From Rhodocytophaga rosea (lineage in GTDB: Bacteria; Bacteroidota; Bacteroidia; Cytophagales; 172606-1): a stretch of DNA of 64,000 nucleotides. Under the pieces are notes generated by a model that was not told the DNA's origin, made no database searches, and worked only from the letters and a program-made list of their open reading frames with translations. The stretch is from positions 7,478,501 through 7,542,500 of the forward strand of contig NZ_CP048222.1 in the NCBI RefSeq assembly GCF_010119975.1, read 5' to 3'. The position numbers were made by a program, and so were the translations under genes. Of this stretch, positions 23,982 to 52,690 are shown piece by piece. The first letter of the stretch is position 1; each line of letters opens with the position of its first letter.

Positions 23982-24264
23982 AATGTTATCAGGTTGGTGG
24001 CAGCAGGATGTAAGATAATAAATGATCGTTCAAAAAACAATGCAAGGCTGCTGAATCACAGGCTATGAATTGATTTTGAAAGTTACTATAGCCAGACCTG
24101 TTTAAAAATTATCCTGACAGTTTCCGGAAAATGCTTAAAAAAAATTGTAACCTGAATGCAGACTGGTAATTATTTTGCATACCAACTTATGTAATGTTTA
24201 CTTTGGTTAGATATATACAAATGGGATAATAATTTTTATCCTTGTTTGTTTTACTTCAACTGCT

Positions 24265-32021: not shown

Positions 32022-32031
32022 TTATTAGATA
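32022..32031. repeat. Left target-site duplication of the composite transposon
   Basis: TTATTAGATA adjoins the left end of IS copy 1 and is identical to 46522-46531, which adjoins the right end of IS copy 2. The inner IS junctions do not carry it. Confidence 0.85.
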
Positions 32032-32051
32032 TAGGGTTTCCGCACTAAATA

Positions 32052-33149
32052 TTAAGTTTTAAGAATAGCTAACAGGAAATTAGTGTCTCTGTTAGCTTTT
32101 TTTCTTTTCCGTTTGACACTCACGCAAGAAGGCTCTTTTTTGAGCAGATGCAAAGACCACTTTCTAATCAGATGCAGATTGATGGGTCCTTTATCTTTCC
32201 TGACTTTAGCCTCATCTTCCCTAAAGGTAACATCTAGTTGCCAATGCAAGCCATTCTCTATCGCCCAATGGCCTCTTATGTAGCGGCTGTACAAGGCAGG
32301 GTCTGTATCTGTTAAACTGCTTATATAGAACAGGGTTTGTTCTTGCTTTTTGCCTGCTATAATGCGTTTTCTTTCTACCATGACTAAAGTATGTAAGTCC
32401 TGCCATTTTTCCTTTTCCTCTACCAAATCAATGCATTGAGCAATATATACCCTACGTTCTTCTCCTCTGCCATGGGCTTTATCTAGTTGCTGATTAAAAG
32501 CGAGAGCAGACTTATTGATTTGCATAAAATGGGCTACCTGCTCATAGAGTACACCTTGATTAGCCTTTAGGGCAATCACATAATGGGCTTGCTTATCCCT
32601 GATCTTTTCTACAATTGCCTGCTGACAAGCAATAGCATCTATAGTAATGATACTACCTTTGCAATCAAGGGTATCTAATAAAGCAGGAATAGTTGTAATC
32701 TCATTACTCTTGGCTTCTACGGCTACTTGTCCAAAGCTTAAGCTATGTTCCTCTACCCATACATTGACCATACGAACCAAAGCATGCTTTTTGCCTGCAG
32801 GTATAGTACCTCTCAATTCTTTGCCATCTATACATACCTGCTTGCCTGCTAAGGAGAAGCCAGCTACACACGCTTTGAAGCATTGCTCCAAACTATGGCT
32901 ATCCAGGTGTCTGATCACCCGATTTAAAGTGTCAGCAGAAGGTATACCATTAACAAAACTTAATCCTAGTTCTTGCTGCAGAAACGCTGTATTATCTTTG
33001 CCATAATCTGCTATCTCGTCAAAGTCATCACAATCGGCTATTACCCCACATAAAACTAAGCCTAAAATATCTGCTAATAGATGTAAGCAGCGGCCTTGCA
33101 CCCGAAAATCAGCTACTTTGTTTAGTATCTTTTTAAGTTCCATGCACAA
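32052..33149 (-). CDS. ISAs1-family DDE transposase (copy 1)
   Basis: The 365-residue protein has the N-terminal DDE-associated domain (LHLLADILGLVLCGVIADCDDFDEIADYG split at its middle) and the DDE catalytic residues in CIDGKELRGT (first Asp), IITIDAIACQ (second Asp) and AIENGLHWQLD (Glu). It cuts and joins at the element's inverted repeats. The last residues are Lys/Arg-rich and their coding sequence also forms the hairpin at 32067-32097. It is identical, residue for residue, to the transposase at 45377. There is no frameshift, so the element is probably active or recently was. Confidence 0.95.
   Translation of the reverse strand: MCMELKKILNKVADFRVQGRCLHLLADILGLVLCGVIADCDDFDEIADYGKDNTAFLQQELGLSFVNGIPSADTLNRVIRHLDSHSLEQCFKACVAGFSLAGKQVCIDGKELRGTIPAGKKHALVRMVNVWVEEHSLSFGQVAVEAKSNEITTIPALLDTLDCKGSIITIDAIACQQAIVEKIRDKQAHYVIALKANQGVLYEQVAHFMQINKSALAFNQQLDKAHGRGEERRVYIAQCIDLVEEKEKWQDLHTLVMVERKRIIAGKKQEQTLFYISSLTDTDPALYSRYIRGHWAIENGLHWQLDVTFREDEAKVRKDKGPINLHLIRKWSLHLLKKEPSCVSVKRKRKKANRDTNFLLAILKT
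32067..32097 (+). terminator. Plus-strand terminator inside IS copy 1
   Basis: AGCTAACAG (32067-32075) pairs with CTGTTAGCT (32089-32097) and is followed by a T-run. It lies within the 3' end of the transposase gene on the other strand, so it would stop transcription entering from the left and running antisense to the transposase. The identical hairpin is at 45392-45422 in copy 2. Confidence 0.6.
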
Positions 33150-33209
33150 AGTTAGCCCCTCTTTCCTTTTTCTCTATCTTTGGTGCGGAAACCTTAATAA
33201 TAAATGCCT

Positions 33210-34478
33210 TTACTTTTCCAGGAAATTTAAGTCTTTGCCAAAGGTTTCTTCCATTTTCCAGAGTCCCAGTAAAGCAATGCCTATGGTAATTAATCCCAAG
33301 AGTCCTGCGCCAGGTAATATTCCGAACTGGCTTCTGAACAGCAGAAAAAGCGGTGTCATGAGAATCATACTGCCACGTACAAAGTTAGGTACGGTCGTAG
33401 CAACAGTTGCCCGAAGGTTGGTACCGAATTGTTCGGCAGCGATGGTAACAAATAAAGCCCAGTAGCCGGATGCAATCCCCAATCCTACACATAAGGCATA
33501 AAATAATGCAGAGGATTGTAAGGGTACAAATAAGTATACGGCTGAGAACAGGGCTGCTAATAAAACATACAGCAGTACAACTTTTTTCCGGCTGTTAAAA
33601 TACTGGCTGAGAATCCCACTCGACAGATCACCTATGGTTAATCCGATGTATTCCCACATTACTGCTTTTCCAGCCACAATGGGCGTATCCAGATCCAGTG
33701 CCTGGCCAATTTCAGGAGAGAACGTCATGAGAATACCAGCCACAAACCAGACTGGTACGCCAATGAGAATACAGCGTATATATTTTATGAATTGCGGTCC
33801 GGAACTAAATAACTGAAAGAAATTTCCCCTGGACACTGATTTTTCTTTGGCTTTTGTAAAAATACCTGACTCGAATACACTTACCCGCATTAACAGTAAT
33901 AGTAAGCCTAGTCCACCTCCGATAAAATATGCGATCCGCCACTCAAAATTATCGGCAATAAAATAAGCCAGAACAGCCCCCAACATGCCTACGGAAGCGA
34001 CCAGTGAAGTGCCATAGCCCCGAATCTCTTTGGGTAATATTTCAGCCACTAGGGTAATGCCTACCCCCAGCTCTCCGGCCAAACCAATACCTGCAATAAA
34101 GCGGAGAACAGCATACTGATCTACGGAAGTGACGAATCCGTTGGCGGCATTGGCCAGTGAATAAATTAAAATCGAGCTGAACAGAACTGATATCCTTCCC
34201 CGTTTGTCGCCCATGATTCCCCAGAGAATGCCCCCTAACAATAGTCCTCCCATCTGCATATTAATCAGGTAAACCCCTTCATTCAATAAACTGGCTTCCG
34301 CAACGCCCAGTGACCGGAGGCTTTCTATGCGGACAATGCTGAATAAGAGCAGGTCATAAATATCTACAAAGTATCCGAGTGCTGCTACAATTACCGGCAC
34401 TTGCAGCAATTGCCGCATTACAGAAGGCTTAGCTTGCAGGGTAGAAGGCTGGGGCCGCAAGAGAGAAGGCTGAGTCAT
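33210..34478 (-). CDS. MFS transporter, probably an organic-acid carrier
   Basis: The 422-residue protein has about 12 hydrophobic segments and the MFS loop signature GDKRGRISVLFSS between helices 2 and 3, with GLAGELGVGITLVAEILPKE in helix 4 and RGYGTSLVASVG. This is the sugar/metabolite:H+ symporter type of layout. It is divergent from the tartrate dehydrogenase-like gene across a 248-bp gap with TGCCAGGCA repeats, so the pair may import and oxidise a hydroxy-dicarboxylate. The substrate is inferred from context. IS copy 1 ends 13 bp beyond its stop, so it is the leftmost cargo gene of the transposon. Confidence 0.88.
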   Translation of the reverse strand: MTQPSLLRPQPSTLQAKPSVMRQLLQVPVIVAALGYFVDIYDLLLFSIVRIESLRSLGVAEASLLNEGVYLINMQMGGLLLGGILWGIMGDKRGRISVLFSSILIYSLANAANGFVTSVDQYAVLRFIAGIGLAGELGVGITLVAEILPKEIRGYGTSLVASVGMLGAVLAYFIADNFEWRIAYFIGGGLGLLLLLMRVSVFESGIFTKAKEKSVSRGNFFQLFSSGPQFIKYIRCILIGVPVWFVAGILMTFSPEIGQALDLDTPIVAGKAVMWEYIGLTIGDLSSGILSQYFNSRKKVVLLYVLLAALFSAVYLFVPLQSSALFYALCVGLGIASGYWALFVTIAAEQFGTNLRATVATTVPNFVRGSMILMTPLFLLFRSQFGILPGAGLLGLITIGIALLGLWKMEETFGKDLNFLEK

Positions 34479-34624
34479 AGGTATTTGAGTTGAATTTCTT
34501 TTTCATCACAATCTGAGTTCCTGAAGCGCATACATAGGCAATTTTGAATGGTTCCAGGCATCCATGTTTCCTAATTACAATCAAGTATTGCCATTCACCA
34601 CTTCCGGTTTGATAATATTTTTTA

Positions 34625-34683
34625 TGCCAGCTGCCTGGCAGAAAATCAAAACAATTTAAGCATCAGCAGGTGGTGCCAGGCAG
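34625..34683. promoter_or_regulatory. Candidate operator between divergent MFS and dehydrogenase genes
   Basis: CTGCCTGGCA (34631-34640) and TGCCAGGCAG (34674-34683) are exact 10-bp inverted copies, and TGCCA (34625-34629) pairs with TGGCA (34636-34640) around the first one. Another CCAGGCA occurs at 34554. Repeated dyads in a divergent promoter region suggest a regulator site; no regulator gene is in the neighbourhood. Confidence 0.45.
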
Positions 34684-34726
34684 AGATTGATTGTAATCTG
34701 ACTATTCACTTATAAAGCTACAAGCC

Positions 34727-35830
34727 ATGAACAGCTATAAAATTGCCGTGATTGCCGGAGATGGAATTGGTCCGGAAGTACTGGCCGAAGGAATCAAAGT
34801 GTTAAAAGCCATAGAAGAACTCGATGGGAATATTCATTTTGAGTTTACACATTTTCCGTGGGGATGCCAATATTATCTCAAACATGGAAAAATGATGGAC
34901 GATGATGGACTGGAAAAGCTAAAAGCCTACGATGCCATTTATTTAGGTGCTGTCGGATTTCCTGGTGTACCGGACCATATTTCGTTGTGGGATTTATTGC
35001 TGAAAATCAGAAAAGGATTTGACCAGTATGTAAACCTTCGTCCTGTTCAGCTGCTGGAAGGAGCCCCTTGTCCCTTGAAAGATGTCAAACGGGAGGATAT
35101 CAACATGATTGTGATCCGGGAGAATAGTGAAGGAGAATATGCCGGGGCAGGGGATTGGCTGTTTAAAGGAAAGCCTGAGGAAGTCGTATTACAAACCGGG
35201 GTGTTCTCCAGAAAAGGAACCGAAAGAATCATTCGTTATGCTTTTGAACTTGCCAGAAAAGAAAAAAAGACACTCACCAGCATCAGCAAAGGAAATGCAC
35301 TTAATTACTCGATGGTATTCTGGGATGAGGTATTTGTAGAAGTAGGAAAACAGTATCCGGATGTACAAACCTATTCGTACCTGGTCGATGCGGCTGCTAT
35401 GTTTTTTGTAAAACAGCCCCAGCGCTTCCAGATTGTAGTTACGTCTAACTTATTTGGGGATATTCTCACCGATTTAGGAGCCGCTATTGCCGGAGGTATG
35501 GGACTGGCAGCTGGCGCAAATATCAACCCGGAACGGAAATATCCATCAATGTTTGAGCCGGTGCATGGGTCTGCACCTGATATTGCCGGAAAAGCAATTG
35601 CCAATCCCCTGGCGGCAATCTGGTCGGTAAGCCAGTTACTGGATTTTTTCGGACATTCTACCTGGGGAAAAGAGGTATTGAATGCAATAGAAAGCGTATT
35701 AGTGGAAGCCAAAAACCTTACACCGGATATGGGTGGGAAAGCAAAAACCTCAGCAGTAGGAGATGCGGTGGTTGCTGTTTTGTCAAAAAAGAGTAGGGTC
35801 AAAGAAATAAGTCCTGATATTGTACAATAG
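34727..35830 (+). CDS. Tartrate dehydrogenase-like isocitrate/isopropylmalate dehydrogenase-family protein
   Basis: The 367-residue protein belongs to the metal- and NAD-dependent beta-hydroxyacid decarboxylating dehydrogenases. It has GDGIGPEV near residue 11, LGAVGFPGVPDHISLWDLLL, the substrate-binding YVNLRPVQLLEG, VIRENSEGEYAG and the C-terminal EPVHGSAPDIAGKAIANP that binds NAD. The PGVPDHISLW variant matches tartrate dehydrogenase/decarboxylase (TtuC/YeaU type) better than LeuB. Likely substrates are tartrate, malate or related acids. It is divergent from the MFS carrier. Its NAD site and metal ligands look intact. Specificity within the family is inferred. Confidence 0.88.
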   Translation: MNSYKIAVIAGDGIGPEVLAEGIKVLKAIEELDGNIHFEFTHFPWGCQYYLKHGKMMDDDGLEKLKAYDAIYLGAVGFPGVPDHISLWDLLLKIRKGFDQYVNLRPVQLLEGAPCPLKDVKREDINMIVIRENSEGEYAGAGDWLFKGKPEEVVLQTGVFSRKGTERIIRYAFELARKEKKTLTSISKGNALNYSMVFWDEVFVEVGKQYPDVQTYSYLVDAAAMFFVKQPQRFQIVVTSNLFGDILTDLGAAIAGGMGLAAGANINPERKYPSMFEPVHGSAPDIAGKAIANPLAAIWSVSQLLDFFGHSTWGKEVLNAIESVLVEAKNLTPDMGGKAKTSAVGDAVVAVLSKKSRVKEISPDIVQ

Positions 35831-36132
35831 CTGGTAAGACATACACCGGTGAAGCATATTTTATCAGATTTCTTTTCATTATATACAAGAAGCAACTGTT
35901 ATAATCGGCTTTGCTTTGTCATCTCAGGTTCTGCTTTTCACAAGTAAGGATTGCCTTTGTATAGAAAACTTTTCTAATATCATTGACTTAATTTGAAACT
36001 GATTCTGGTTATAAAATTTATGTAAAGGCAGCATTGGTTTAATGAATATTTAAACTAAATGACTTTGTATATTTACATGAAAAATTTTCATTTTATATAT
36101 TTACCCCAATACTACCAAATCTGCTTCTGAGT

Positions 36133-39100
36133 ATGTCATTTTCAACACTACCTGCTAAATCTTCTCTGTTTATTCTCTTTTTATTGATCACAATTACAGG
36201 ATTAATTAGTTGCCTGAATTCCAAAAAACCTGTTGCACAAACGAGTGCTAATGCTTCATCTACTTCCCTTCGGGTACTGGTATTTTCCAAAACCAAAGGC
36301 TGGAAGCATACATCGATTCCATATGGAATTACTGCCATACAAAAGATGGGGAAAGAAAATAATTTTCAGGTGGATACCACGACCAATGCCGCTTATTTTA
36401 CAGAAGATAGTTTACGGCATTATCAGGCAGTTATTTTCAACTGTACCACCGGCAATGTATTAAATGCCCAACAACAGGCAGCTTTTGAAGGGTACATTCA
36501 AGCAGGAGGCGGATACGCTGGAATTCATTCGGCGGCTGATACCGAATATGAATGGCCCTGGTATAATAAGTTAATGGGAGCACATTTTGCCAATCATCCC
36601 TCCAACCCTGGAGAGCGCAAAGCAGCTGTTGATGTAACCAATAAAAACCATCCGTCTACCGCACATTTACCCGACCGCTGGGAGCGTACCGATGAATGGT
36701 ATAGCTACCGTTCTTTCTATTCCGGGTTAAATGTGCTGGCGTATCTGGATGAAAATACCTACGACAATGGCACCAATGGAGCCAATCACCCTATTGCCTG
36801 GTATCATGACTTTGATGGAGGCAGGGCTTTTTATACCGGATTGGGGCATACACCGGAAAGTTACAGTGAGCCCTTATTTTATCAGCATTTGTGGGGAGGA
36901 ATAAAATATGCCATGGGCAATGGCAAACCATTGGATTATAGTAAAGCCTATGCTGTAGTGGTTCCTGAAGAAAACCGCTTTGTAAAAACGGTTTTAATCA
37001 ATGACTTGAATACCCCTATGGAACTGGCTGTTGCTGGTGATGGACGGGTATTCTTTACAGAACTGTCAACCGGGAATCTTTTTCTCTATAACACGAATAC
37101 GAAAAAACAATCGCTTGTACATCAGTTTGCCTTATCTAAATTTCGGGGAACAGGCTTAATTGGGGTAACCCTTGATCCGGACTTTGCCACCAATCAGTAC
37201 ATATACCTGTATTATTCACCACCTGTAGAAAAAGAACCTATTATTTTCCATTTGTCCAGATTTACTGTAAAGAGCGATAATACACTGGATGTAAACTCCG
37301 AGAAGATATTGTTAAAAGTGCCGGTGCAGGAAAATAGTGGGGCACATCATGGCGGTTCCCTGGCCTTTGACAAAGATGGGAATCTTATACTGTCTACCGG
37401 CGATAGTTCCAGTCCGTTTCCTTCCAATGGATATGCCCCTCTGGACGAACGTCCAGGACAAGAATATTTCAGCCTGGATGCCCAGCGGTCTTCGGCAAAT
37501 TCCAATGATTTTAAAGGAAAAATCTTACGCATTCATCCAGAACCTGATGGCAGTTATACTATTCCGGCAGGCAACCTGTTCCCGAAAGGAATGGAAAAAA
37601 CTTTACCAGAAATTTATGCCATGGGCTGCCGGAATCCTTACCGGATTGCTGTAAATCCGAAAACTTCTACCGTATACTGGGGCGAAATTGGCCCGGATGC
37701 TGGTAAAGATAGTATTCAGGGCCCCAGAGGCTATGATGAGTTTAATCAGGCAAAAAAGGCTGGAAATTTCGGATGGCCTTACTTTGTAGGCGATAATCAG
37801 GCCTATGTAAAATGGGATTTTACAAGCAATACCGCTGGACCAAAGTTCGATCCGGCAGCGCCAGTCAATAAATCTCCTAATAATACCGGACTTGAAAAAT
37901 TGCCTCCGGCTCAGAAACCAATGATCTGGTATCCCTATGCGGCTTCTAAAGAGTTTCCGGAACTAGGGCAGGGGGACGTAGTGCGATGGCTGGTTCATTT
38001 TATACCTATAATAAGGCCACTGCCTCTCCCAATGCATTTCCCGAGTATTACGATGGCACCTTGTTTATTTTTGAATGGATGCGTAACTGGGTAATGGCCG
38101 TAAGGTTTGATGAGAATGAAAACTATGTACGCAGTGAACCCTTTATGACTGCCAATGGCGATTTCCGCCGGCCAATAGATCTGGCTTTCAGCAAAGATGG
38201 GGTGATGTATATGTTGGAATATGGTTCGGTATATGGTGCCGATAACGAGGATGCACGACTGGTAAAAATTGAATACAATACCGGAAACCGGGCACCTATT
38301 GCGAAGGCTACTATTACGGATTCTGTAGCAGCGGCACAACTAAGCAAGAGAGTTTTTATAACTTCTGAGAACAGAAATCTGCCTGAGATTAGGGACATCG
38401 CAGGACAAGCACCATTGCGGATACTTTTCAACAGCCGGGGCACCAGAGACTTAGATGATGACGATGAACTGATGTATGAGTGGTTGTTTGATGGCAAAAC
38501 GGTAGGGGCAACTAAACCGAATGCTTCATATACCTATACACATGAAGGAGAATACCAGGCTATTCTGAAAGTAACGGATAAAGCTGGTCTGGTGGGTACA
38601 GATACCCTTGTGGTGAAAGTTGGGAATGCGATGCCGGAAGTAAGCATTCAGTCTACCGGAAACAAATCTTTTTACTGGGAAAATAAGCCTTTTGAATATA
38701 CGGTGAAGGTAGCCGATAAAGAAGATGGAAAAGTTGATCCTAAAAATGTAAAAGTATATTTTGACTACAATCCGCAGCCCAGTGCCCTGTCGAATGAAGC
38801 ACAGCTTAAAAAACAAATCGTTACTACGGTTGAAACTAATACCGAAGGAAAACAATTGATCGCCCGCAGCGATTGCAAAGCCTGCCATACCATAGATAAA
38901 GTTTCTGTAGGGCCTGCATATGTTGCCGTGGCACAGCGGTACAAAAACCAGCCAGGCTCGGTTGATAAACTGGCTAAGAAAATTATTGCCGGAGGAGCAG
39001 GCAGCTGGGGAACCCAGTATGTAATGAGTGCCCATCCGCAGATTTCCGCCCAGGATGCTTCGGAAATGGTGAAATATATATTCTCTCTTACAGATGAAAA

Positions 39101-39632
39101 AAAGGAAAAAGCGCAGTTGCCAGTACAAGGTTCCATTGCTTTGAAAGAACATACAGAGGATCAGCCAAGAGGCCAATATACATTACTAGCCACCTACACG
39201 GATAAAGGCGGGAAAACAATTGGTCCCCTAACCAATTCAGATATGGTAACCTTGCGAAATGCCAAAGTAAGAACGGTATATGCCGATGCACATGTAGGTT
39301 TTCCCAGGTTTGGCAATTCCCTGAGCCAGGGAGACCATAAATCGTATATTCTTCTGAAAAATATAGACCTAAGTGGCATTAAAAAATTCGTCTATGAGTA
39401 TTCTTCTCTGGATAAAGAAGGGGAAATTGAAGTACGTATCGATTCCTATGCTGGTCCTGTGATCTGCCGGACACCTTATAAGGCAACCGGAGCCTGGAGT
39501 ACAAAACAGCAGATCACTGGAGAAATAACCAAACTTACGGAGGGTAAACATGATGTGTATTTTGTGGTCGTAAAACGGGACAAACCCAATGAGGATATTA
39601 TTAATGTAAGCACCATTCAGTTTGAACAATAA
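36133..39632 (+). pseudogene. ThuA / PQQ-type sugar dehydrogenase / PKD / cytochrome c fusion, broken by a frameshift
   Basis: A lipoprotein signal (LLITITGLISC) leads into a ThuA-like glutamine-amidotransferase-fold domain (about residues 40-270), then a glucose/sorbosone dehydrogenase beta-propeller (SGAHHGGSLAFDKDGNL, YAMGCRNPYRIA), up to about residue 615. There a run of five G at 37971-37975 shifts the frame. One extra G restores ...LGQGGRSAMAGSF, the expected propeller sequence, and the frame continues to 39632 through a PKD domain (RGTRDLDDDDELMYEWLFDG), a cytochrome c haem site (CKACH) and a beta-sandwich carbohydrate-binding-like end. The intact protein would be about 1166 residues, a size common in Bacteroidota. 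The break may be real, phase-variable, or a sequencing error. Confidence 0.85.
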
Positions 39633-39647
39633 GGCATCCATCTAACT

Positions 39648-39687
39648 AAAAATAAACCCAGGCAATATTATGCCTGGGTTTATTTTT
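39648..39687. terminator. Bidirectional terminator
   Basis: AAAAATAAACCCAGGCA (39648-39664) pairs perfectly over 17 bp with TGCCTGGGTTTATTTTT (39671-39687), between the broken dehydrogenase gene (+) and the small acidic protein gene (-, stop at 39718). Confidence 0.9.
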
Positions 39688-39717
39688 ACGCATCATCTTT
39701 TAGGTTGCCCTCTCTTT

Positions 39718-40095
39718 TTATTTGGTATTCCCTTTAGCATAATAATCTTCCTGATCTCCATAGGTTTCTCCGATGGTAAAACCGGCTACTGCTTCGGCAT
39801 CATAGGCAGCTGTTGTAGGAGGTAAAGGAGTTAGGGGCGCACTGAGTGCTTCTGGTTCATCATATATCTCTAGATGAGTTTCGGGTTGTTTTAACGAACT
39901 ACTCTCCGTTGAATCCTGGTTTTCTGCTGAAAATGATGCCTGGCTTTCCACTTCTACGGAAAGGGTTTCGCTAATACGGTTCTGATTAGCTTCGCTGATA
40001 TAAGTTTTTATACGTCGATGGTTATCTTTCATTCTGTCAATAATTAAATAATCTTTTGATGTTTTACGAGAAATTCTGGTGTTGAGTAGAAACAT
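39718..40095 (-). CDS. Small disordered acidic hypothetical protein (125 aa)
   Basis: The N-terminal 40 residues are basic and probably helical; the rest is rich in Ser, Glu, Pro and Thr (ESSSLKQPETHLEIYDEPEALS), with no cysteine or hydrophobic segment, so it is likely disordered. An ATG at 40032 (MKDNHRRIKTYI) is an alternative start. No family is recognised. It sits between the terminator at 39648 and the TPR histidine kinase gene, on the same strand as the latter. It may be a genuine small gene or a degraded one. Confidence 0.45.
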   Translation of the reverse strand: MFLLNTRISRKTSKDYLIIDRMKDNHRRIKTYISEANQNRISETLSVEVESQASFSAENQDSTESSSLKQPETHLEIYDEPEALSAPLTPLPPTTAAYDAEAVAGFTIGETYGDQEDYYAKGNTK

Positions 40096-40297
40096 TTAGG
40101 AACTTAAATTTCTTTGCATTCAAAATTCCTGCCTGCCGCCATTCTTTGGGGCGAAGCTATGGTATGGCTAAAGAAAGCTTTTGTCCTGGTGAAGCTAAAA
40201 AGAGGAGGGAGGCAGATAAAGGTTAGAATGAATGTTGATGTCAAAGCCCAGGCTGTTAATAAATTATACTATGCCGCCAGAGTGATTGGCACGGAAT

Positions 40298-42382
40298 CTA
40301 AGAAGGCAGGTATATATGAAACGCACATCCTTGATTGGGCGCACTTTCTACTTCAATTTTTCCGTTAAGCGCCTCTACCTGTTCTTTTACAATAAATAAG
40401 CCCATTCCCTTTCCTTCCACATGCGTATGCATTCTCTGGTAGAGTTTAAAAAGTTTATTACCATTACTCTTGGTAAGGTCTACGCCAATACCATTATCTT
40501 TTACCGTCAAACAAACAGCATCGTTTACTTTAGAAGTTTTTATGAGAATTTCGGGACTACGTTCAGGGGATTGATATTTGATAGCATTGGAAACAAGATT
40601 ATACAAAATACTGGTCATATAACTTTTAATGGTTAATAATTTATCCACTTGCGAATAATCCGTCTGAATGCTGGCAGCGGAAGTTCTAATCATCTCATGT
40701 AAACTTTCAATTGTAAGCCGGGTAACGTCCTCCAGAGATACTTCCTCTTTATATTGATCAGCCAGGGTTTGCATCAGCAGGATATCGTTCAGGTCACTGA
40801 CCACCATATCCAGATTAACGGCGGCTGTATTCAGGTGCTCCAGTATCGGTAGATTGCTTTTATCCTGAAGGTTATCTTTATTGAAAATAGAAACCAAACC
40901 CATAATTCTGGCAATCGGCGCCCGTAAATTGTGAGAGATTACATACGCAAAATCTTCCAGGTGCTGATTTTTTCTAACTACATTCTCCATGGCGATTTGT
41001 AACTGGTGCGTACGTTCTTCTACCTTTTGTTCCAGGGAATTATTGAATTGTTTGATTTCCTCATTTTTCTCAGAAAGTTCTTTCTGCTGTAGAGTAAGGG
41101 TATAGTTGGCTTTGTACTTCTGGCGGTTACTCCGGTAAAGAATAAAAGCCAGCATCATAATTAAAATCAATATACCGGTAATGGCAAACAATGTATTGTT
41201 TTTTTGTTGGGCTTCTGCCTGAATAATTTCATTGTCTTTCTTTAATAAGGCTATTTCTGCTTGTTTTTTATCCCACTCATACCCGGCCATCACCTTTTCC
41301 AGTTCAGCATTATATTTTCTCTTATCGAGCGAATCTTTCACCGTATACTGTAGTTTCTGGTACTGGTAGGCTTTATCCAGCTGATTGGTTTGCAGATAAT
41401 AACTGGATAAGGTCTGATACAAAACCTGAAGAAAATCATGTTCTCTCACAGAACTTTTCAGGTATATGGCACTATCAAGATATATTTTGGCTAAAGAATA
41501 ATTCCTTTTCTGAAGATGAACATTGGCAATGCTGATATAATTATTGGCTGCGCTGCCCCACATATTAAACTTCTTGCTTAAGTTAAGATCAAGTAGATAA
41601 TAGGGTAAAGCCTTTTCATTGTTACCTTGCGATTGATAAATAACACCCAGATTCCCGGCTGTTATAGCAATCCAGGCGCTATCTTTTGCCTGAATAGCCA
41701 TCTGGTAAGAAAGTTTCTGATAATGTATGGCATCGGAATATTCTTCTTTGGCGCGGTATGCCAGAGCAATAGTATTTATACAGCTGATTAATATACGCTT
41801 ATCTAAAGAATCACTTCCCAGTTGATAGGCCTTTAGCAGATATCGTTTGGAGGCATTGTATTTATGGGTATAGTAACACAAATTGCCTAGTTCATATAGT
41901 GTTTCTGCCTCAGATTTCTGATATCCTTGCTGATAGTAAATTTCCAGGGCTTTCAAATATTGTTGCAACGCTAATTCCTGCCTGCCTATTGAATGATAAA
42001 TACTGCCCATTAATTTTAAACTATGGGCTTCTTCCATGGGCAACTTATCCTTTTGAGCGAGCCGGTATGCTTGCTGGGTAGCCTGCAAAGCTTGCATTCC
42101 CTTATTATTCTGATTATATACAATAGCTTTACAACGGTATGCACTTGCACCAGGCCCTTTAAAAGGGAGCCGCTGACTGATGGATATTATTTTATCCGTT
42201 GCTTGCAAAGCAGCATTAAATTCCGTTTTTTGGAGGGTTTGTTCTATGTGAGAAAAAACAGAAGGATATGTAGCGGGGGTAGCGTTAGCCAGCGCTAAGA
42301 ACAGACTGTCTAAACTATGGGATTGAGCGGAGACAAATAAGGGAAAAAATACGCTTAAAACGAGCAGAAAAAAATGCCGCAT
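40298..42382 (-). CDS. TPR-containing sensor histidine kinase
   Basis: The 694-residue protein has a signal peptide (FFLLVLSVFFPLFVSAQ) and six or more periplasmic TPR units (residues about 60-340, for example AHSLKLMGSIYHSIGRQELA, SETLYELGNLCYYTHKY by pieces). One membrane helix follows near residue 400 (LFAITGILILIMMLAFILY), then a coiled coil. The kinase core has H484 in YVISHNLRAPIAR, the N box NLVSNAIKYQS, VKDNGIGVDL and the G2 box GKGMGLFIVKEQ. It is an orphan kinase: no response regulator is next to it. It lies inside the transposon and is intact. TPR-type sensors of this sort are frequent in Bacteroidota; the signal is unknown. Confidence 0.92.
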   Translation of the reverse strand: MRHFFLLVLSVFFPLFVSAQSHSLDSLFLALANATPATYPSVFSHIEQTLQKTEFNAALQATDKIISISQRLPFKGPGASAYRCKAIVYNQNNKGMQALQATQQAYRLAQKDKLPMEEAHSLKLMGSIYHSIGRQELALQQYLKALEIYYQQGYQKSEAETLYELGNLCYYTHKYNASKRYLLKAYQLGSDSLDKRILISCINTIALAYRAKEEYSDAIHYQKLSYQMAIQAKDSAWIAITAGNLGVIYQSQGNNEKALPYYLLDLNLSKKFNMWGSAANNYISIANVHLQKRNYSLAKIYLDSAIYLKSSVREHDFLQVLYQTLSSYYLQTNQLDKAYQYQKLQYTVKDSLDKRKYNAELEKVMAGYEWDKKQAEIALLKKDNEIIQAEAQQKNNTLFAITGILILIMMLAFILYRSNRQKYKANYTLTLQQKELSEKNEEIKQFNNSLEQKVEERTHQLQIAMENVVRKNQHLEDFAYVISHNLRAPIARIMGLVSIFNKDNLQDKSNLPILEHLNTAAVNLDMVVSDLNDILLMQTLADQYKEEVSLEDVTRLTIESLHEMIRTSAASIQTDYSQVDKLLTIKSYMTSILYNLVSNAIKYQSPERSPEILIKTSKVNDAVCLTVKDNGIGVDLTKSNGNKLFKLYQRMHTHVEGKGMGLFIVKEQVEALNGKIEVESAPNQGCAFHIYLPS

Positions 42383-43268
42383 TCCATATTTAATTTAAAA
42401 ATCAGAAAGAGGGGCAGTTAATATTATACTAAATTAATATTTTAGATATATGTTTTATGCGACTACTCCTAATTTATTTTTTGTCAGAAGATTTACACAA
42501 AGACATAGGCCAGCCAAATTTCACTTAGACAACCATCTGGTGCTAACACAAGCAAGTAGCTAAATTATGGAAATTAACGAAGGAGATAAGATCAGTCTGG
42601 TAGCTTGATTCTCAGATAATTTAAGTATTCTTACCAAAACCATCCCTCGAAAAACAGGCTATCTACCTTGCATGTGGAGGCATTACTAACGACATAATAA
42701 CTACGGCATACTCTGCTATTTGTTCAAAGACTTAAATTTACAAGAAGTTAGTTGATTATAGCCAAATTGCTTTTGAGAGCAGTTGCGTATACTACATCAA
42801 TTTTGATTGAATAAATGTATTTACAATTATTTTTTATGATTTGAACTTTTACGGCTTGTATGTCTCCTTATAAACTTGTCAACAAAGTGCTCATTTTGTC
42901 AATGCATATCTGACACAGCATATCATAGAAGAAGCGAGCCTGACAAAGTAAATTGTAATTGCCTCTATGGGGAAGGAAGGATCAGAAAAAATAAAAGATA
43001 TTGTTTAGATCAACGGGAGACTCTCTGATTTTCCAGACATATTTTAATTATATCTGTCCCTACCTGTAATAAATAACTTTGAAGTGTTGGAGGCACTCTA
43101 GCACATTATTAATCTGATCCTATACGCTCCATGATTATTCTAACTCACCAGTTCTTCTCATATTAAAATATAAAAGAATTAAAGCACCGGGATGCAAAAC
43201 TATCTGCTTAAACCATTAACAGAGCTAAACGGCTGCCCTTACTTAAACAATATCATTAATGGCCAGCT
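42383..43268. other. Non-coding stretch of 886 bp inside the transposon
   Basis: No gene is supported. Around 42568-42740 on the plus strand there are protein-like fragments (MEINEGDKISLVA, then RKTGYLP in another frame) split by stops, perhaps an eroded gene. TTGTCAA occurs twice 20 bp apart (42876-42882, 42896-42902), followed by TGACA, which could be a regulator site now without an evident target. Confidence 0.4.
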
Positions 43269-45077
43269 TCACTTTGTCATAGGAAGCTCTACATGGAAGG
43301 TAGTGCCTACCTTCTCCTGGCTTTCCAGGTAAATACTTCCTTCATTTAAATCAATTACCCGTTTCACTAAATACATCCCTACACCTCTGCCTGCTATCTC
43401 TGGATTAAACCGTTTAAAAATCATAAACACTTTTCCATGATCTTCTTTTCTGATGCCTATCCCATTATCTGAAAAGCTCACCAGGATGTTATCGCCCTTT
43501 ATCCTGGAAGAAATTTTTACATGAAGCTGCCTGTCGGTTGAGCGAAATTTCAAGGCATTTGAAAGCATATTATAGACTAAGCTTTTAGCATGCCTCTTTG
43601 GTATGTGTAAGAGAGGCACAGCTAAATCCACCTCTATAGAAGCTTTAGTCTCTTCTATTTGGTTATAATGGGCTACTTTCACTTCTTTAATCACGTCCGC
43701 TAAATTAACCAGCTCTTTTCCATCACCTGTATGAATCTCAGTGACCGTAGTTAAGTCCTGGAGTGTATTCTTTAAATCAACCACTGATTTCCTCATCAGT
43801 TCCATATATAAAGCGGTATTTTCCTTCTCATCAGTAATCTCTTCCTTTAGGAAGTTCAATAACGTTTCAATATTATTCAGTGGAGAGCGCAGGTCATGAG
43901 AAGCCGTATAAACAAAACTATCCAGATCCACATTGCGATGGGAAAGCTACGTATTTTTTTCTTCCAGTTCTTTGCGTTCGGTAATATCCATGGCTGTGCC
44001 TGTAAATTTGCCATGAACCATTTTCGCCCTTGACCAAATATACTTTAGCTTTCCATTGGGTAGGCAAAGCTTATATTCCACCGTATGAGATTCCCCACTA
44101 CTCAATACCTTATGTACATTCTCAAAGAATTTTTCTCTGTCTGCTGAATGAATCATATTATCTACAAGGGCAGGGGTTATTTTTACAGAAGGGTCAATCT
44201 CAAATATTTGATACATCTGAGCCGTCCAGTAGATATCTCCTTTTTCATCCATTTGGAAGGTGCCTATCTGGGCTATTTGCTGACTTTCCAGCAGGAGTTC
44301 TTCACTTTGTTTAAACTTCTCTTCTTGAAGTTTTCGCTCCGTAATATCCATCACTGTTCCTGTACGCCTGCCATTGATTATTTTTCCTCTGGTCCACAAA
44401 TGCTTCAAACGACCGTCAGCAGTGATTACTCTGTATTCTATGGAGTAGGTCTCCTGGGTATTTCTTATTTTACTCACCATCGCTACGAATTTCTCTTTAT
44501 CCTCCGGATGGACAAAAGAGGCAATTAACTGAGGAGTAATCTTTAGAGAATTGGGTTCTATGCCATACAGGTTAAACATTTGTGGGGTCCAATACACCTC
44601 ACTCATGTCTTCATTCCACTGGAAAGCTCCCAGTTGGGCTATATCCTGGCTTTCCAACAGCAAGGCTTCACTTCTATGTAAGATGTCTTCTTTTAATTTT
44701 TGCTCAGTAATATTATCAGAAGCAATGATGAGGCCATCTTCATACTTGATTCCCCTTTCCCTGATCCAGTGAGTCAAACCATCCTGATCATGGTAATACT
44801 CTGTTAAATAGGCTTCTCCTGTATGGGTGGTATGTATCCACCGCTTAAAATTTTCACTTCCAATGGCGCTTGGAAACAGCTCAGATACCCTTTTTCCCAC
44901 TTCAATTAGCCCTTTTGCAGAAGGATACAGTTGAAGGGCTCGTTTGTTGAACAGCACCCAGGTAAAATCCAGGATGTTATTGTGCTCATCACGGAGGGCT
45001 TTTAGTACAAAAACAGAACTGAGTGAGGAATCAAAAATTCCTTGGAGCAACTCATTTGAATGAGTAGTATCTGGCAT
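43269..45077 (-). pseudogene. PAS-domain sensor histidine kinase, split by an in-frame TAG
   Basis: The upstream part (45077 to 43947, 376 residues) holds three PAS domains, each closing with the (D)ITERK-type coil of PAC motifs, and ends ERKELEEKNT-stop. Beyond the TAG (43947-43949) the same frame goes on: LSHRNVDLDSFVYTASHDLRSP, the start of a dimerisation and phospho-acceptor domain, then the N box MLSNALKFRS, FSDNGIGIRK, GRGVGMYLVKR and a stop at 43269. One base change (for example CAG or GAG to TAG) therefore separates sensor from kinase. The intact protein would be about 602 residues. A GTG at 43931 could start translation of the kinase part alone. Confidence 0.88.
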
Positions 45078-45356
45078 GAATGTTTGTTAGTAACATATAA
45101 ACATAAGGTCTACAAGTATTTAGAGAAAATAATTCCGGATTTACTTATAAGATTTACATTCTCCATATCTTATTGGTTGTAGCACTTAGCAACTAGAAAG
45201 CGAAGGGTATTTTATACTGACACTCATGGAGAGGTAAAGTAGTATAAATGGCAACCTGTCCTGGTATATACGGTTTTGTAAATTGGAATATGCATAAGAA
45301 GTAAAAATAGCATTTAAATTATCTATAAGTAATTAAACACAATTAAGTATAATATT

Positions 45357-46521
45357 TAGGGTTTCCGCACTAAATATTAAGTTTTAAGAATAGCTAACAG
45401 GAAATTAGTGTCTCTGTTAGCTTTTTTTCTTTTCCGTTTGACACTCACGCAAGAAGGCTCTTTTTTGAGCAGATGCAAAGACCACTTTCTAATCAGATGC
45501 AGATTGATGGGTCCTTTATCTTTCCTGACTTTAGCCTCATCTTCCCTAAAGGTAACATCTAGTTGCCAATGCAAGCCATTCTCTATCGCCCAATGGCCTC
45601 TTATGTAGCGGCTGTACAAGGCAGGGTCTGTATCTGTTAAACTGCTTATATAGAACAGGGTTTGTTCTTGCTTTTTGCCTGCTATAATGCGTTTTCTTTC
45701 TACCATGACTAAAGTATGTAAGTCCTGCCATTTTTCCTTTTCCTCTACCAAATCAATGCATTGAGCAATATATACCCTACGTTCTTCTCCTCTGCCATGG
45801 GCTTTATCTAGTTGCTGATTAAAAGCGAGAGCAGACTTATTGATTTGCATAAAATGGGCTACCTGCTCATAGAGTACACCTTGATTAGCCTTTAGGGCAA
45901 TCACATAATGGGCTTGCTTATCCCTGATCTTTTCTACAATTGCCTGCTGACAAGCAATAGCATCTATAGTAATGATACTACCTTTGCAATCAAGGGTATC
46001 TAATAAAGCAGGAATAGTTGTAATCTCATTACTCTTGGCTTCTACGGCTACTTGTCCAAAGCTTAAGCTATGTTCCTCTACCCATACATTGACCATACGA
46101 ACCAAAGCATGCTTTTTGCCTGCAGGTATAGTACCTCTCAATTCTTTGCCATCTATACATACCTGCTTGCCTGCTAAGGAGAAGCCAGCTACACACGCTT
46201 TGAAGCATTGCTCCAAACTATGGCTATCCAGGTGTCTGATCACCCGATTTAAAGTGTCAGCAGAAGGTATACCATTAACAAAACTTAATCCTAGTTCTTG
46301 CTGCAGAAACGCTGTATTATCTTTGCCATAATCTGCTATCTCGTCAAAGTCATCACAATCGGCTATTACCCCACATAAAACTAAGCCTAAAATATCTGCT
46401 AATAGATGTAAGCAGCGGCCTTGCACCCGAAAATCAGCTACTTTGTTTAGTATCTTTTTAAGTTCCATGCACAAAGTTAGCCCCTCTTTCCTTTTTCTCT
46501 ATCTTTGGTGCGGAAACCCTA
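45357..46521 (-). mobile_element. ISAs1-family insertion sequence, copy 2
   Basis: This 1165-bp element appears identical to copy 1 apart from one base in the right inverted repeat (C at 46519). Here both terminal repeats are a perfect match, TAGGGTTTCCGCAC and GTGCGGAAACCCTA. It forms the right boundary of the composite transposon and is followed at once by the target repeat. Confidence 0.9.
45377..46474 (-). CDS. ISAs1-family DDE transposase (copy 2)
   Basis: The 365 residues are identical to the transposase at 32052, with the same DDE residues and the same internal plus-strand hairpin (45392-45422). Identical copies mean that duplication was recent or that gene conversion keeps them alike. 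The frame is intact. Confidence 0.95.
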   Translation of the reverse strand: MCMELKKILNKVADFRVQGRCLHLLADILGLVLCGVIADCDDFDEIADYGKDNTAFLQQELGLSFVNGIPSADTLNRVIRHLDSHSLEQCFKACVAGFSLAGKQVCIDGKELRGTIPAGKKHALVRMVNVWVEEHSLSFGQVAVEAKSNEITTIPALLDTLDCKGSIITIDAIACQQAIVEKIRDKQAHYVIALKANQGVLYEQVAHFMQINKSALAFNQQLDKAHGRGEERRVYIAQCIDLVEEKEKWQDLHTLVMVERKRIIAGKKQEQTLFYISSLTDTDPALYSRYIRGHWAIENGLHWQLDVTFREDEAKVRKDKGPINLHLIRKWSLHLLKKEPSCVSVKRKRKKANRDTNFLLAILKT

Positions 46522-46531
46522 TTATTAGATA
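46522..46531. repeat. Right target-site duplication of the composite transposon
   Basis: TTATTAGATA, identical to 32022-32031. It follows immediately after the perfect terminal repeat of IS copy 2. Confidence 0.85.
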
Positions 46532-50470: not shown

Positions 50471-52690
50471 ATGCACAGAAGAAATTTTATGAAGACGGCT
50501 TCATTCCTCGGAGGTCTATCCGCAGCTGGAGGAGCCAGCCTTTTAACAATAGCAAAAGTTCAGGCAAAGGATAAAGCTGCCAGGGAAAAACTATGGTTTG
50601 ACAGGTCAATGCGATGGGCGCAGCTTGCTTTTGTAGAAAATGATCCGGGTAGGTATGATCCCGATTTCTGGCTGGGTTATTTCAAACGAATTCATGCCGA
50701 TGGTGCTTTATTAAGTGCCGGGGGAGTGGTGGCTTTCTATCCTACTCAAATACCCCTGCATCACCGGAGTCCCTGGCTTGGTAATTCCGATCCCTTAGGC
50801 TACCTGGTGGAGGGATGCCGCAAGATGAATATGTCTGTTATTTTGCGCACAGATCCACATGCCACCAGACAAGATATGTATGAAGCTCATCCGGATTATA
50901 TTCATGTAACAGCCGATGGAAAAAAGCGCCGCCACTGGGCAAACCCAGAATTGTGGGTAACCTGTGCCTTAGGACCCTATAATTTTGATTTTATGACCCG
51001 GGTGAATCAGGAGATCATGGAACGCTATCAGCCGGATGCCATATTCTCCAACCGCTGGTCTGGGCATGGACTCTGTTACTGCGAACACTGCAAACAGAAT
51101 TTTAAATCCTTTTCCGGCTTTGAATTGCCTGCCACTACCTCTTCCGGACTAAGCACCGCTATGGCCAGCGGTGATAAGTCGGACCCTGCCTACCGCAAGT
51201 ATACCGAGTGGCGTACAGAACGGCTGAAAGAATTGTGGTTTTTGTGGGACAAAGAGATCCGGAAACAAAAACCTTCTGCCAGATATATTCCAAATGGTTT
51301 TCCGGATAAATTATTAACAGGCAAACATTCTGATTTCTTTTTTGCCGATCAGCAGGCCAGAAGCGGGGTGATTCCTCCCTGGTCGAATGGGAAACATGCC
51401 AAAGAATTACGGGCCACTATGGGAATGAAACCCCAGGTAGGAATTTTTAGTGTAGGTATTGAAGAGCAATACCGGTGGAAAGATTCTGTGCAAAGCAATG
51501 CAGAAATTAAGATATGGGTAGCCGAAGGTACCGCAAACGGCCTGCTTCCCTGTTTTGTAAAGTTCGGCGGATTTATGTATGATAAACGCTGGATGGACAC
51601 CATAGCAGATATTTACCAGTTGCATTACAAACACGAAAAGTATCTGCGAAATACAGACTCTCTAGCCAGGGTAGGAATGGTATATTCTGAACAAACCAGC
51701 CGCAACTATGGCGGGAAGTCCTGGCAGCAGAAAAGTGAGGATCATGCCCTGGGCATGTACCATGCCCTTATTGAAGCCCGTATTCCGTTTGAAATGGTGC
51801 ACGATCAGCTTCTGGATGCTCAGAGTATTAAACCATACAAGCTACTTATCTTGCCCAACATAGCTGCACTTTCAGATGCGCAGTGCAGCCAGTTGCGTGC
51901 TTTTGTGGAAAATGGAGGAAGCATTGTGGCTACATTTGAAACTTCTCTATATAACGAAGAAGGCAAACAACGTACAGATTTTGGCCTGAAAGACCTGTTT
52001 GGTGTTTCATATGACCAGCAGGTAGAAGGACCCATGCGAAACAGCTATCTTCGCCTGAAAAGTGAAGCAGGCTCTGCAAAATTCCATCCCGTTTTAACTG
52101 AACTGGAAGATGCCTACCGGATCATTAACACCATTCACCAGGTACAGGTTAAGCCTTTAGCTGACTTCCCCAGTCCGGTTACGCTGATTCCTACCTATCC
52201 CGATCTGCCGATGGAAGATGTGTACCTGCGGGAACCGGAAAGCACGACCAGAGAATTGTACTTAAGGGAGATTGGAAAAGGGCGTACTGCCTATATTCCC
52301 GGTGATATGGAACGTTCTTTCTGGCAACTCATGAGCGCCGATCATGGAAAATTGCTAGCTAATACCATCCGCTGGGCATTACAGGAAGCTCCAGTTGTGG
52401 AGGTGAAAGGGTCGGGTATTGTAGATGTTACCGTTTGGCAGCAGAAACAATCCATGACGGTTCATCTGGTAAACCTCACCAATCCGATGATGATGAAAGG
52501 TCCCTTTAGGGAACTGATCCCCATAGATAAACAACAGGTGAGTATCCAACTTCCGAAAGGAGTACAAGTGAAAGCCGTACAGCTATTAGTGAGCGGACAA
52601 AAGCCTGCCTTTAAAATAAATGAAGGGAAGCTTACTGTAATAGTTCCCAGGATCGAGGATTTAGAAATTGTTGCCCTGGATATAGCCTAG
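50471..52690 (+). CDS. Putative glycoside hydrolase with beta-galactosidase trimerisation-like domain, Tat signal
   Basis: The 739-residue protein has a twin-arginine leader (HRRNFMKTASFLGGLSAAGG). The first 400 residues look like a TIM barrel (FDRSMRWAQLAFVENDP, MNMSVILRTDPHATRQDMY, DAIFSNRWSGHGLCYCEHC), followed by a flavodoxin-like domain resembling the beta-galactosidase trimerisation domain (residues about 400-600: YKLLILPNIAALSDAQCSQL, FVENGGSIVATFETS). The end is a beta-sandwich. I think it belongs to the GHL-type hypothetical glycosyl hydrolases; the substrate is unknown. A CxxC motif (CEHC) is in the barrel. It is divergent from the GH13 gene across 272 bp. Confidence 0.7.
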   Translation: MHRRNFMKTASFLGGLSAAGGASLLTIAKVQAKDKAAREKLWFDRSMRWAQLAFVENDPGRYDPDFWLGYFKRIHADGALLSAGGVVAFYPTQIPLHHRSPWLGNSDPLGYLVEGCRKMNMSVILRTDPHATRQDMYEAHPDYIHVTADGKKRRHWANPELWVTCALGPYNFDFMTRVNQEIMERYQPDAIFSNRWSGHGLCYCEHCKQNFKSFSGFELPATTSSGLSTAMASGDKSDPAYRKYTEWRTERLKELWFLWDKEIRKQKPSARYIPNGFPDKLLTGKHSDFFFADQQARSGVIPPWSNGKHAKELRATMGMKPQVGIFSVGIEEQYRWKDSVQSNAEIKIWVAEGTANGLLPCFVKFGGFMYDKRWMDTIADIYQLHYKHEKYLRNTDSLARVGMVYSEQTSRNYGGKSWQQKSEDHALGMYHALIEARIPFEMVHDQLLDAQSIKPYKLLILPNIAALSDAQCSQLRAFVENGGSIVATFETSLYNEEGKQRTDFGLKDLFGVSYDQQVEGPMRNSYLRLKSEAGSAKFHPVLTELEDAYRIINTIHQVQVKPLADFPSPVTLIPTYPDLPMEDVYLREPESTTRELYLREIGKGRTAYIPGDMERSFWQLMSADHGKLLANTIRWALQEAPVVEVKGSGIVDVTVWQQKQSMTVHLVNLTNPMMMKGPFRELIPIDKQQVSIQLPKGVQVKAVQLLVSGQKPAFKINEGKLTVIVPRIEDLEIVALDIA

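Follow-up and report, generated by a model that had tools for sequence, protein, structure and literature searches.

Cross-matching target duplications link a 12-kb block between two ISAs1-family elements of Rhodocytophaga rosea to a second site on the same chromosome

That missing target duplications can stem from recombination between identical insertion sequences (ISs) is established, and in one E. coli population five of nine large rearrangements are cited as the outcome of such recombination (PMC11708052). In the IS6 family, circles carrying a single IS, their insertion beside resident copies, and pseudo-compound transposons have all been described (PMC7986276). An island bounded by IS26, with an 8-bp duplication in common, has been described as well; some genomes keep a single IS26 there, a state ascribed to recombination within the directly oriented copies (PMC13228073). 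Among elements with two copies of one IS, Tn6097 from Paracoccus has two copies of ISPfe2, of the IS1634 family, and measures 17,759 bp in all (PMC3281130). Our literature search found no paper on ISAs1 in Cytophagales, which is not proof that there is none. Here, we describe two ISAs1-family elements and the genes between them in a 64-kb stretch (64,000 nucleotides; the window) of the Rhodocytophaga rosea chromosome, and compare their flanks with those of every other copy on that chromosome.

Two ISAs1-family elements and the genes between them

The two elements share one orientation, and their 365-aa transposase ORFs are identical (Table 1). The transposase of the left copy scored 329.1 bits against the NCBIfam ISAs1 model NF033564 (cut-off 70) and was also above cut-off for PF13808 and PF01609; by profile models, then, the window elements carry an ISAs1-type transposase, and no IS6 model was among the three NCBIfam families reported. 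Relatives of this transposase, at 31–43% identity, were found at at least 79 loci in a search of genome contigs with its own genome left out (138 of 173 stretches confirmed), and none of them was a close match.

At the outer edges, the IS ends are perfect 14-bp inverted repeats (TAGGGTTTCCGCAC / GTGCGGAAACCCTA) and TTATTAGATA lies on both sides, with no further forward occurrence in the 64-kb window; its reverse complement is found once within each window IS (at 32672 and 45997) and has no bearing on the flank argument. The inner flanks, ATAATAAATG at 33197 (with one further occurrence in the window, at 24015) and GTATAATATT at 45347, are unlike the outer repeat and unlike each other. The original prediction had described two same-orientation 1165-bp ISAs1-type copies with identical transposases, the outer direct and inverted repeats, and inner junctions matching neither the outer repeat nor each other, and all of this was borne out to the base. 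Its estimate of about 12 kb of metabolic and signalling cargo agrees with the 12,160 bp that lie between the IS copies. A feature that it did not contain is a single base change at 33194, where the inner inverted repeat of the left copy departs from the other intact copies.

The G+C content of the cargo was 40.6%, vs. 41.1% in the remainder of the window. A search of the chromosome for a second copy of the cargo found none (40 of 115 candidates scored; 12,151 of the 12,160 bp searched), and the next best match was a 69% stretch of less than 1 kb. Two cargo genes are interrupted: the ThuA gene has a frame change near 37.98 kb and is a single open frame in the same-genus genome G001 and in genome G006, and the PAS kinase gene has its in-frame stop at 43947 and is a single open frame in G001. 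From the reading frames, these interruptions could be either decay or sequencing error.

Table 1. Features of the locus in window coordinates (C1, chromosome)
Feature	Position	Strand	Remarks
Outer flank TTATTAGATA, left copy	32022..32031	+	Among the 16 genomic copies, equals the right flank of the right window IS only
Left ISAs1-family element	32032-33196	-	1165 bp; transposase ORF 32052-33149
Single base change, inner inverted repeat of left IS	33194..33194	+	T vs. C in 14/14 other intact copies
ATAATAAAT, cargo left end	33197..33205	+	9-bp duplication common to the left flank of the IS at C1:654051-655215
Cargo, very probably relocated	33197..45356	.	12,160 bp
MFS transporter	33210..34478	-	PF07690
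Tartrate dehydrogenase	34727..35830	+	TIGR02089, 507.2 bits (cut-off 470.4)
ThuA / GSDH / PKD / cytochrome c / CBM6 gene	36133..39632	+	Two frames
TPR sensor histidine kinase	40298..42382	-	
PAS sensor histidine kinase	43269..45077	-	One in-frame stop
29-bp IS630-type element end	45328..45356	+	Remaining 1082 bp (9 shared) at C1:652969-654050
TATAATATT, cargo right end	45348..45356	+	9-bp duplication common to the right flank of the IS at C1:654051-655215
Right ISAs1-family element	45357-46521	-	1165 bp; transposase ORF 45377-46474
Outer flank TTATTAGATA, right copy	46522..46531	+	

Flanks of the 16 chromosomal copies and the site at 654 kb

The chromosome is one contig of 8,983,451 bp (8.98 Mb) that carries 16 copies of the 1165-bp element. 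A DNA search returned 15 intact copies and one interrupted by an IS630-type element (40 of 55 candidates scored); a 111-bp ISAs1-like stretch at 73% was set aside and left out of the count. A recount by 32-base end patterns gave 16 left ends and 16 right ends with no stray, and the reversed-pattern controls gave 0. ISAs1-family elements produce target duplications of 8–10 bp, and we found duplications of this size around 13 of the 16 copies (9 bp at ten copies and 10 bp at three; the interrupted copy is among the 13), along with the 14-bp terminal inverted repeats, as is usual for the family. This count of the other copies and their flanks, which had been proposed as a check on the locus, left three copies without a duplication of their own: both window copies and the copy at C1:654051-655215.

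With all 16 copies turned to one orientation, we compared the left and right flanks of different copies (240 off-diagonal pairs). Just three pairs matched at one mismatch or fewer, and all three were exact (10, 9 and 9 bp). TTATTAGATA flanks the left window copy on its left and the right window copy on its right, TATAATATT flanks the right window copy on its left and the 654-kb copy on its right, and ATAATAAAT flanks the 654-kb copy on its left and the left window copy on its right. These matches close one 3-cycle, and its three members match nothing else among the 16. A shifted-register control of 3584 comparisons contained four identical 9-mers and no identical 10-mers, and at that rate chance alone would give about 0.3 9-mer matches in 240 pairs, so that one stray 9-mer match would be unremarkable; what lifts the matches above chance is that they close a cycle, and that the members of this cycle are precisely the three copies without a duplication of their own.

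Target duplications mark sequence that was contiguous before an IS inserted. It follows that the two outer arms of the window were once contiguous, and that the cargo once lay between the arms of the 654-kb copy. Duplications exchanged among the copies involved and intact elsewhere, here one 3-cycle with 13 of 16 copies intact, are the pattern left by recombination among ISs. Judging by these flanks, the donor site of the cargo is the C1:654051-655215 locus on the same chromosome, and we consider it very probable that the cargo once stood there and has since moved to the window site. The donor locus holds exactly one IS, flanked by ATAATAAAT and TATAATATT, as excision by recombination between two ISs leaves it.

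The right edge of the cargo carries a second, independent scar. The 654-kb arm starts with 1082 bp of an IS630-type element, whose transposase is of the DDE_3 type, and 9 of these bp are the shared duplication. When the cargo end and the donor arm are joined once via TATAATATT, they yield a full 1102-bp IS630-type element (1102 of 1102 bp, 99.8% identity) that has TA on both sides; IS630-type elements duplicate TA. The stretch around the split point is uninterrupted in all 30 IS630 loci read, the reference copy among them and three divergent copies outside this count, and the chromosome has at least 33 full or nearly full IS630-type copies in addition to the split one (40 of 68 candidates scored). 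Since joining the arms restores the element, the order of events is insertion of the IS630-type element, insertion of an ISAs1 copy into it, and then the move.

Two observations on the IS630-type elements stand apart from this argument: 29 copies are at 99–100% identity to the reference copy, and the reference copy itself interrupts an ISAs1 copy (C1:2544914-2547182).

The right edge thus restores a broken sequence, with a full IS630-type element and TA on both sides, as expected of recombination, and the left edge offers no more than the 9-bp match and a gene order that fits. Joined to the donor, the left edge places the MFS gene about 380 bp upstream of a zinc-type alcohol dehydrogenase gene in the same direction; in the donor left arm, this gene is followed by a succinate-semialdehyde-type dehydrogenase. 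Such an order is compatible with one former gene cluster. The MFS and donor genes were never together in the neighborhoods of relatives that we read, so that the left edge depends on the 9-bp match. None of the three joins is crossed by an ATG-started frame of at least 50 aa.

Adjoining the donor site (L020 6491-8259, C1 ~650.5-652.3 kb) are a PEP-synthase-like fragment and then a transposase in two ORFs, both named from their translations. Two putative glycosyl hydrolases resemble each other, one near the present site (50471-52690) and one beside the donor (L021 4463-6727); the donor-side one has matches to GHL6 and Glyco_hydro_42M, and the likeness of the window one was judged by eye.

Origin of the cargo and gene order in relatives

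The tartrate dehydrogenase shares 81% identity with a gene carried by two Peribacillus plasmids. It is rare in its own order (2 of 241 genomes at 1e-110), and across the phylum it was found in 4 of 395 genomes at 1e-100, its own genome included in both counts. These findings suggest transfer of the gene from Bacillota. Horizontal arrival of the whole block was considered and rejected, since three other cargo genes match G001 at 70–76% DNA identity and the tartrate dehydrogenase looks foreign; on these matches, the block looks to be of mixed origin. In G001, an assembly of 200 contigs, the matches to the ThuA, TPR-kinase and PAS-kinase genes (at 50% identity or more) fall on three different contigs, that of the TPR kinase close to a contig end.

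The MFS protein occurs in 27 of 59 genomes at 1e-60, its own included, and had no match in plasmids at the same threshold; the alcohol dehydrogenase of the donor had plasmid matches only below 60% (98 records). Neither a tartrate nor an alcohol or aldehyde dehydrogenase lay beside the MFS gene in the seven neighborhoods read (1e-8), and neither the MFS gene nor the donor genes lay near the tartrate dehydrogenase in the four neighborhoods read (1e-8). The donor-side aldehyde dehydrogenase was found in none of five family members at 1e-100, in a search run without a positive control. At the window site, the GNAT protein occurs in 12 of 59 genomes at 1e-20, its own included. The best GNAT match in G001, at 50%, is on a different contig from trpS, and trpS, the GDSL gene and this match are not neighbors there; none of the relatives examined keeps the window-site gene order. 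The relatives examined neither back nor contradict the move.

Routes of movement and comparison with described systems

On balance, we think it probable that the cargo moved by two crossovers among three identical IS copies, the number that a 3-cycle of flanks takes; our confidence in the relocation itself is much higher than in the preference for crossover over transposition. As the scars show, an IS630-type element had inserted at TA beside the cargo at the 654-kb locus, one ISAs1 copy had inserted into that element and produced the duplication TATAATATT, and another ISAs1 copy, in the same orientation, stood at the other end of the cargo with the duplication ATAATAAAT. The two flanking copies may then have recombined, releasing the cargo as a circle with one IS, and this circle may have been taken up by an ISAs1 copy that already stood at the window site and had TTATTAGATA as its own duplication. 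Two successive inversions between oppositely oriented copies of both sites would give the same product, as we worked out by hand for the 3-cycle. Neither route would change the number of ISs, and both would leave the donor with one hybrid IS, as is found there; the window structure would be a pseudo-compound arrangement around the resident IS.

Movement by crossover is supported by the balance of left and right ends, 16 of each with no stray, and many near-identical ISAs1 copies are resident as possible capture sites. We favor crossover over transposition because it accounts for both sites with a single class of event and because any of many resident copies could have captured the circle. The intermediate, a lone window-site IS with TTATTAGATA on both sides, was found in none of the strains or relatives examined.

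With regard to the inversion route, the ISs at the window and 654-kb sites are oppositely oriented. Across 20 samples, each of 20 kb, GC skew is negative at 0–2.25 Mb, positive at 2.7–6.3 Mb and of mixed sign at 6.75–8.55 Mb, with a cumulative maximum near 8.1 Mb, and the sampled skew switches near 2.5 and 8.3 Mb. The two sites seem to lie on opposite sides of the skew switch near 8.3 Mb, which would make an inversion possible. This replichore argument is weak because of the mixed sign at 6.75–8.55 Mb and because dnaA, at 883.9 kb (0.88 Mb), lies off both switches; we give it no weight and place neither the circle nor the inversion route above the other.

Composite transposition, followed by a loss at the donor, would yield the same end sequence. 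The outer ends of the 654-kb IS pair would have moved the whole IS-cargo-IS unit into a virgin TTATTAGATA, the donor copy being kept by sister-chromosome repair and its cargo later lost by recombination between the ISs. The window does have the form of a composite transposon, with two ISs around a cargo, perfect outer inverted repeats and one shared outer duplication, and the transposase matches DDE_Tnp_1. The related composites Tn5 and Tn10 move by cut and paste. Movement of this kind requires no prior IS at the window site and involves one event fewer (two insertions, a jump and a loss, vs. three insertions and two crossovers), but the single hybrid IS at 654 kb then needs a separate donor event of another kind. 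As weak evidence in the same direction, no ISAs1-bounded composite appears in the portions of the literature available to us. We therefore regard composite transposition with later donor loss as unlikely, while giving it serious weight, and the sequence alone does not decide between it and crossover.

What stands of the original prediction is that the block moved as one unit, which the flank cycle, the IS630 scar and the finding of the donor all support; the label of composite transposon is not established. The prediction had also held that the unequal inner flanks argue against a circle. This argument fails, since the flanks are the 9-bp duplications of two separate donor insertions, and an excised circle would be expected to have unequal flanks.

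A misassembly would mean that the cargo is really at 654 kb and that only a lone IS stands at the window site; this strikes us as very unlikely. A 3-cycle among identical repeats is also expected of misjoined repeats, and the two interrupted cargo genes could be sequencing errors, but the chromosome is one contig and the duplications at 13 of the 16 repeat copies show that the two arms belong together. Repeats of 1.2 kb are easily spanned by long reads. We give similarly little credence to the idea that ISAs1-family cargo moved as single-IS circles directed by the transposase to a resident copy, a behavior like that of IS26 outside the IS6 family. Hardly credible, finally, is replicative transposition of a single-IS circle into a virgin target, in which the resulting cointegrate would have two ISs and a fresh duplication, as in the copy-in cointegration of IS26. 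It reproduces the observed flanks exactly with one crossover and one transposition, but we saw no sign that an ISAs1-family transposase makes cointegrates, and the mechanism is described for the IS6 family (PMC7986276).

Whichever route was taken, this locus is a well-documented new case of ordinary IS-linked genome reshuffling, and its biology is otherwise ordinary. It shows that comparing target duplications across every copy in one genome can trace an apparent composite transposon, here one with a perfect shared duplication and unequal inner flanks, to its donor, and that transposition is not proved by a shared outer duplication alone. In other genomes rich in identical ISs, the flank-cycle test could likewise tell true composites apart from products of recombination.

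Compared with described systems, the locus resembles Tn6097 in that a pair of identical ISs encloses metabolic cargo and short direct repeats flank the whole. Transposition of Tn6097 was shown with a trap plasmid, whereas here the relocation is read from sequence and the donor keeps a hybrid IS (PMC3281130). Like the pseudo-compound transposons described for IS26, the window has directly repeated ISs around a cargo and one outer duplication, and a single-IS circle is a likely carrier, as in the IS26 translocatable units; unlike in those systems, the transposase is of the ISAs1 family and ordinary recombination suffices (PMC7986276; PMC13228073). There is also a likeness in pattern to the cases of PMC11708052, which likewise involve identical ISs, copies without their own duplication and a large rearrangement. 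The new cases of that paper itself are deletions and one duplication, whereas here a closed 3-cycle of flanks names the donor, the cargo and the target from a single genome.
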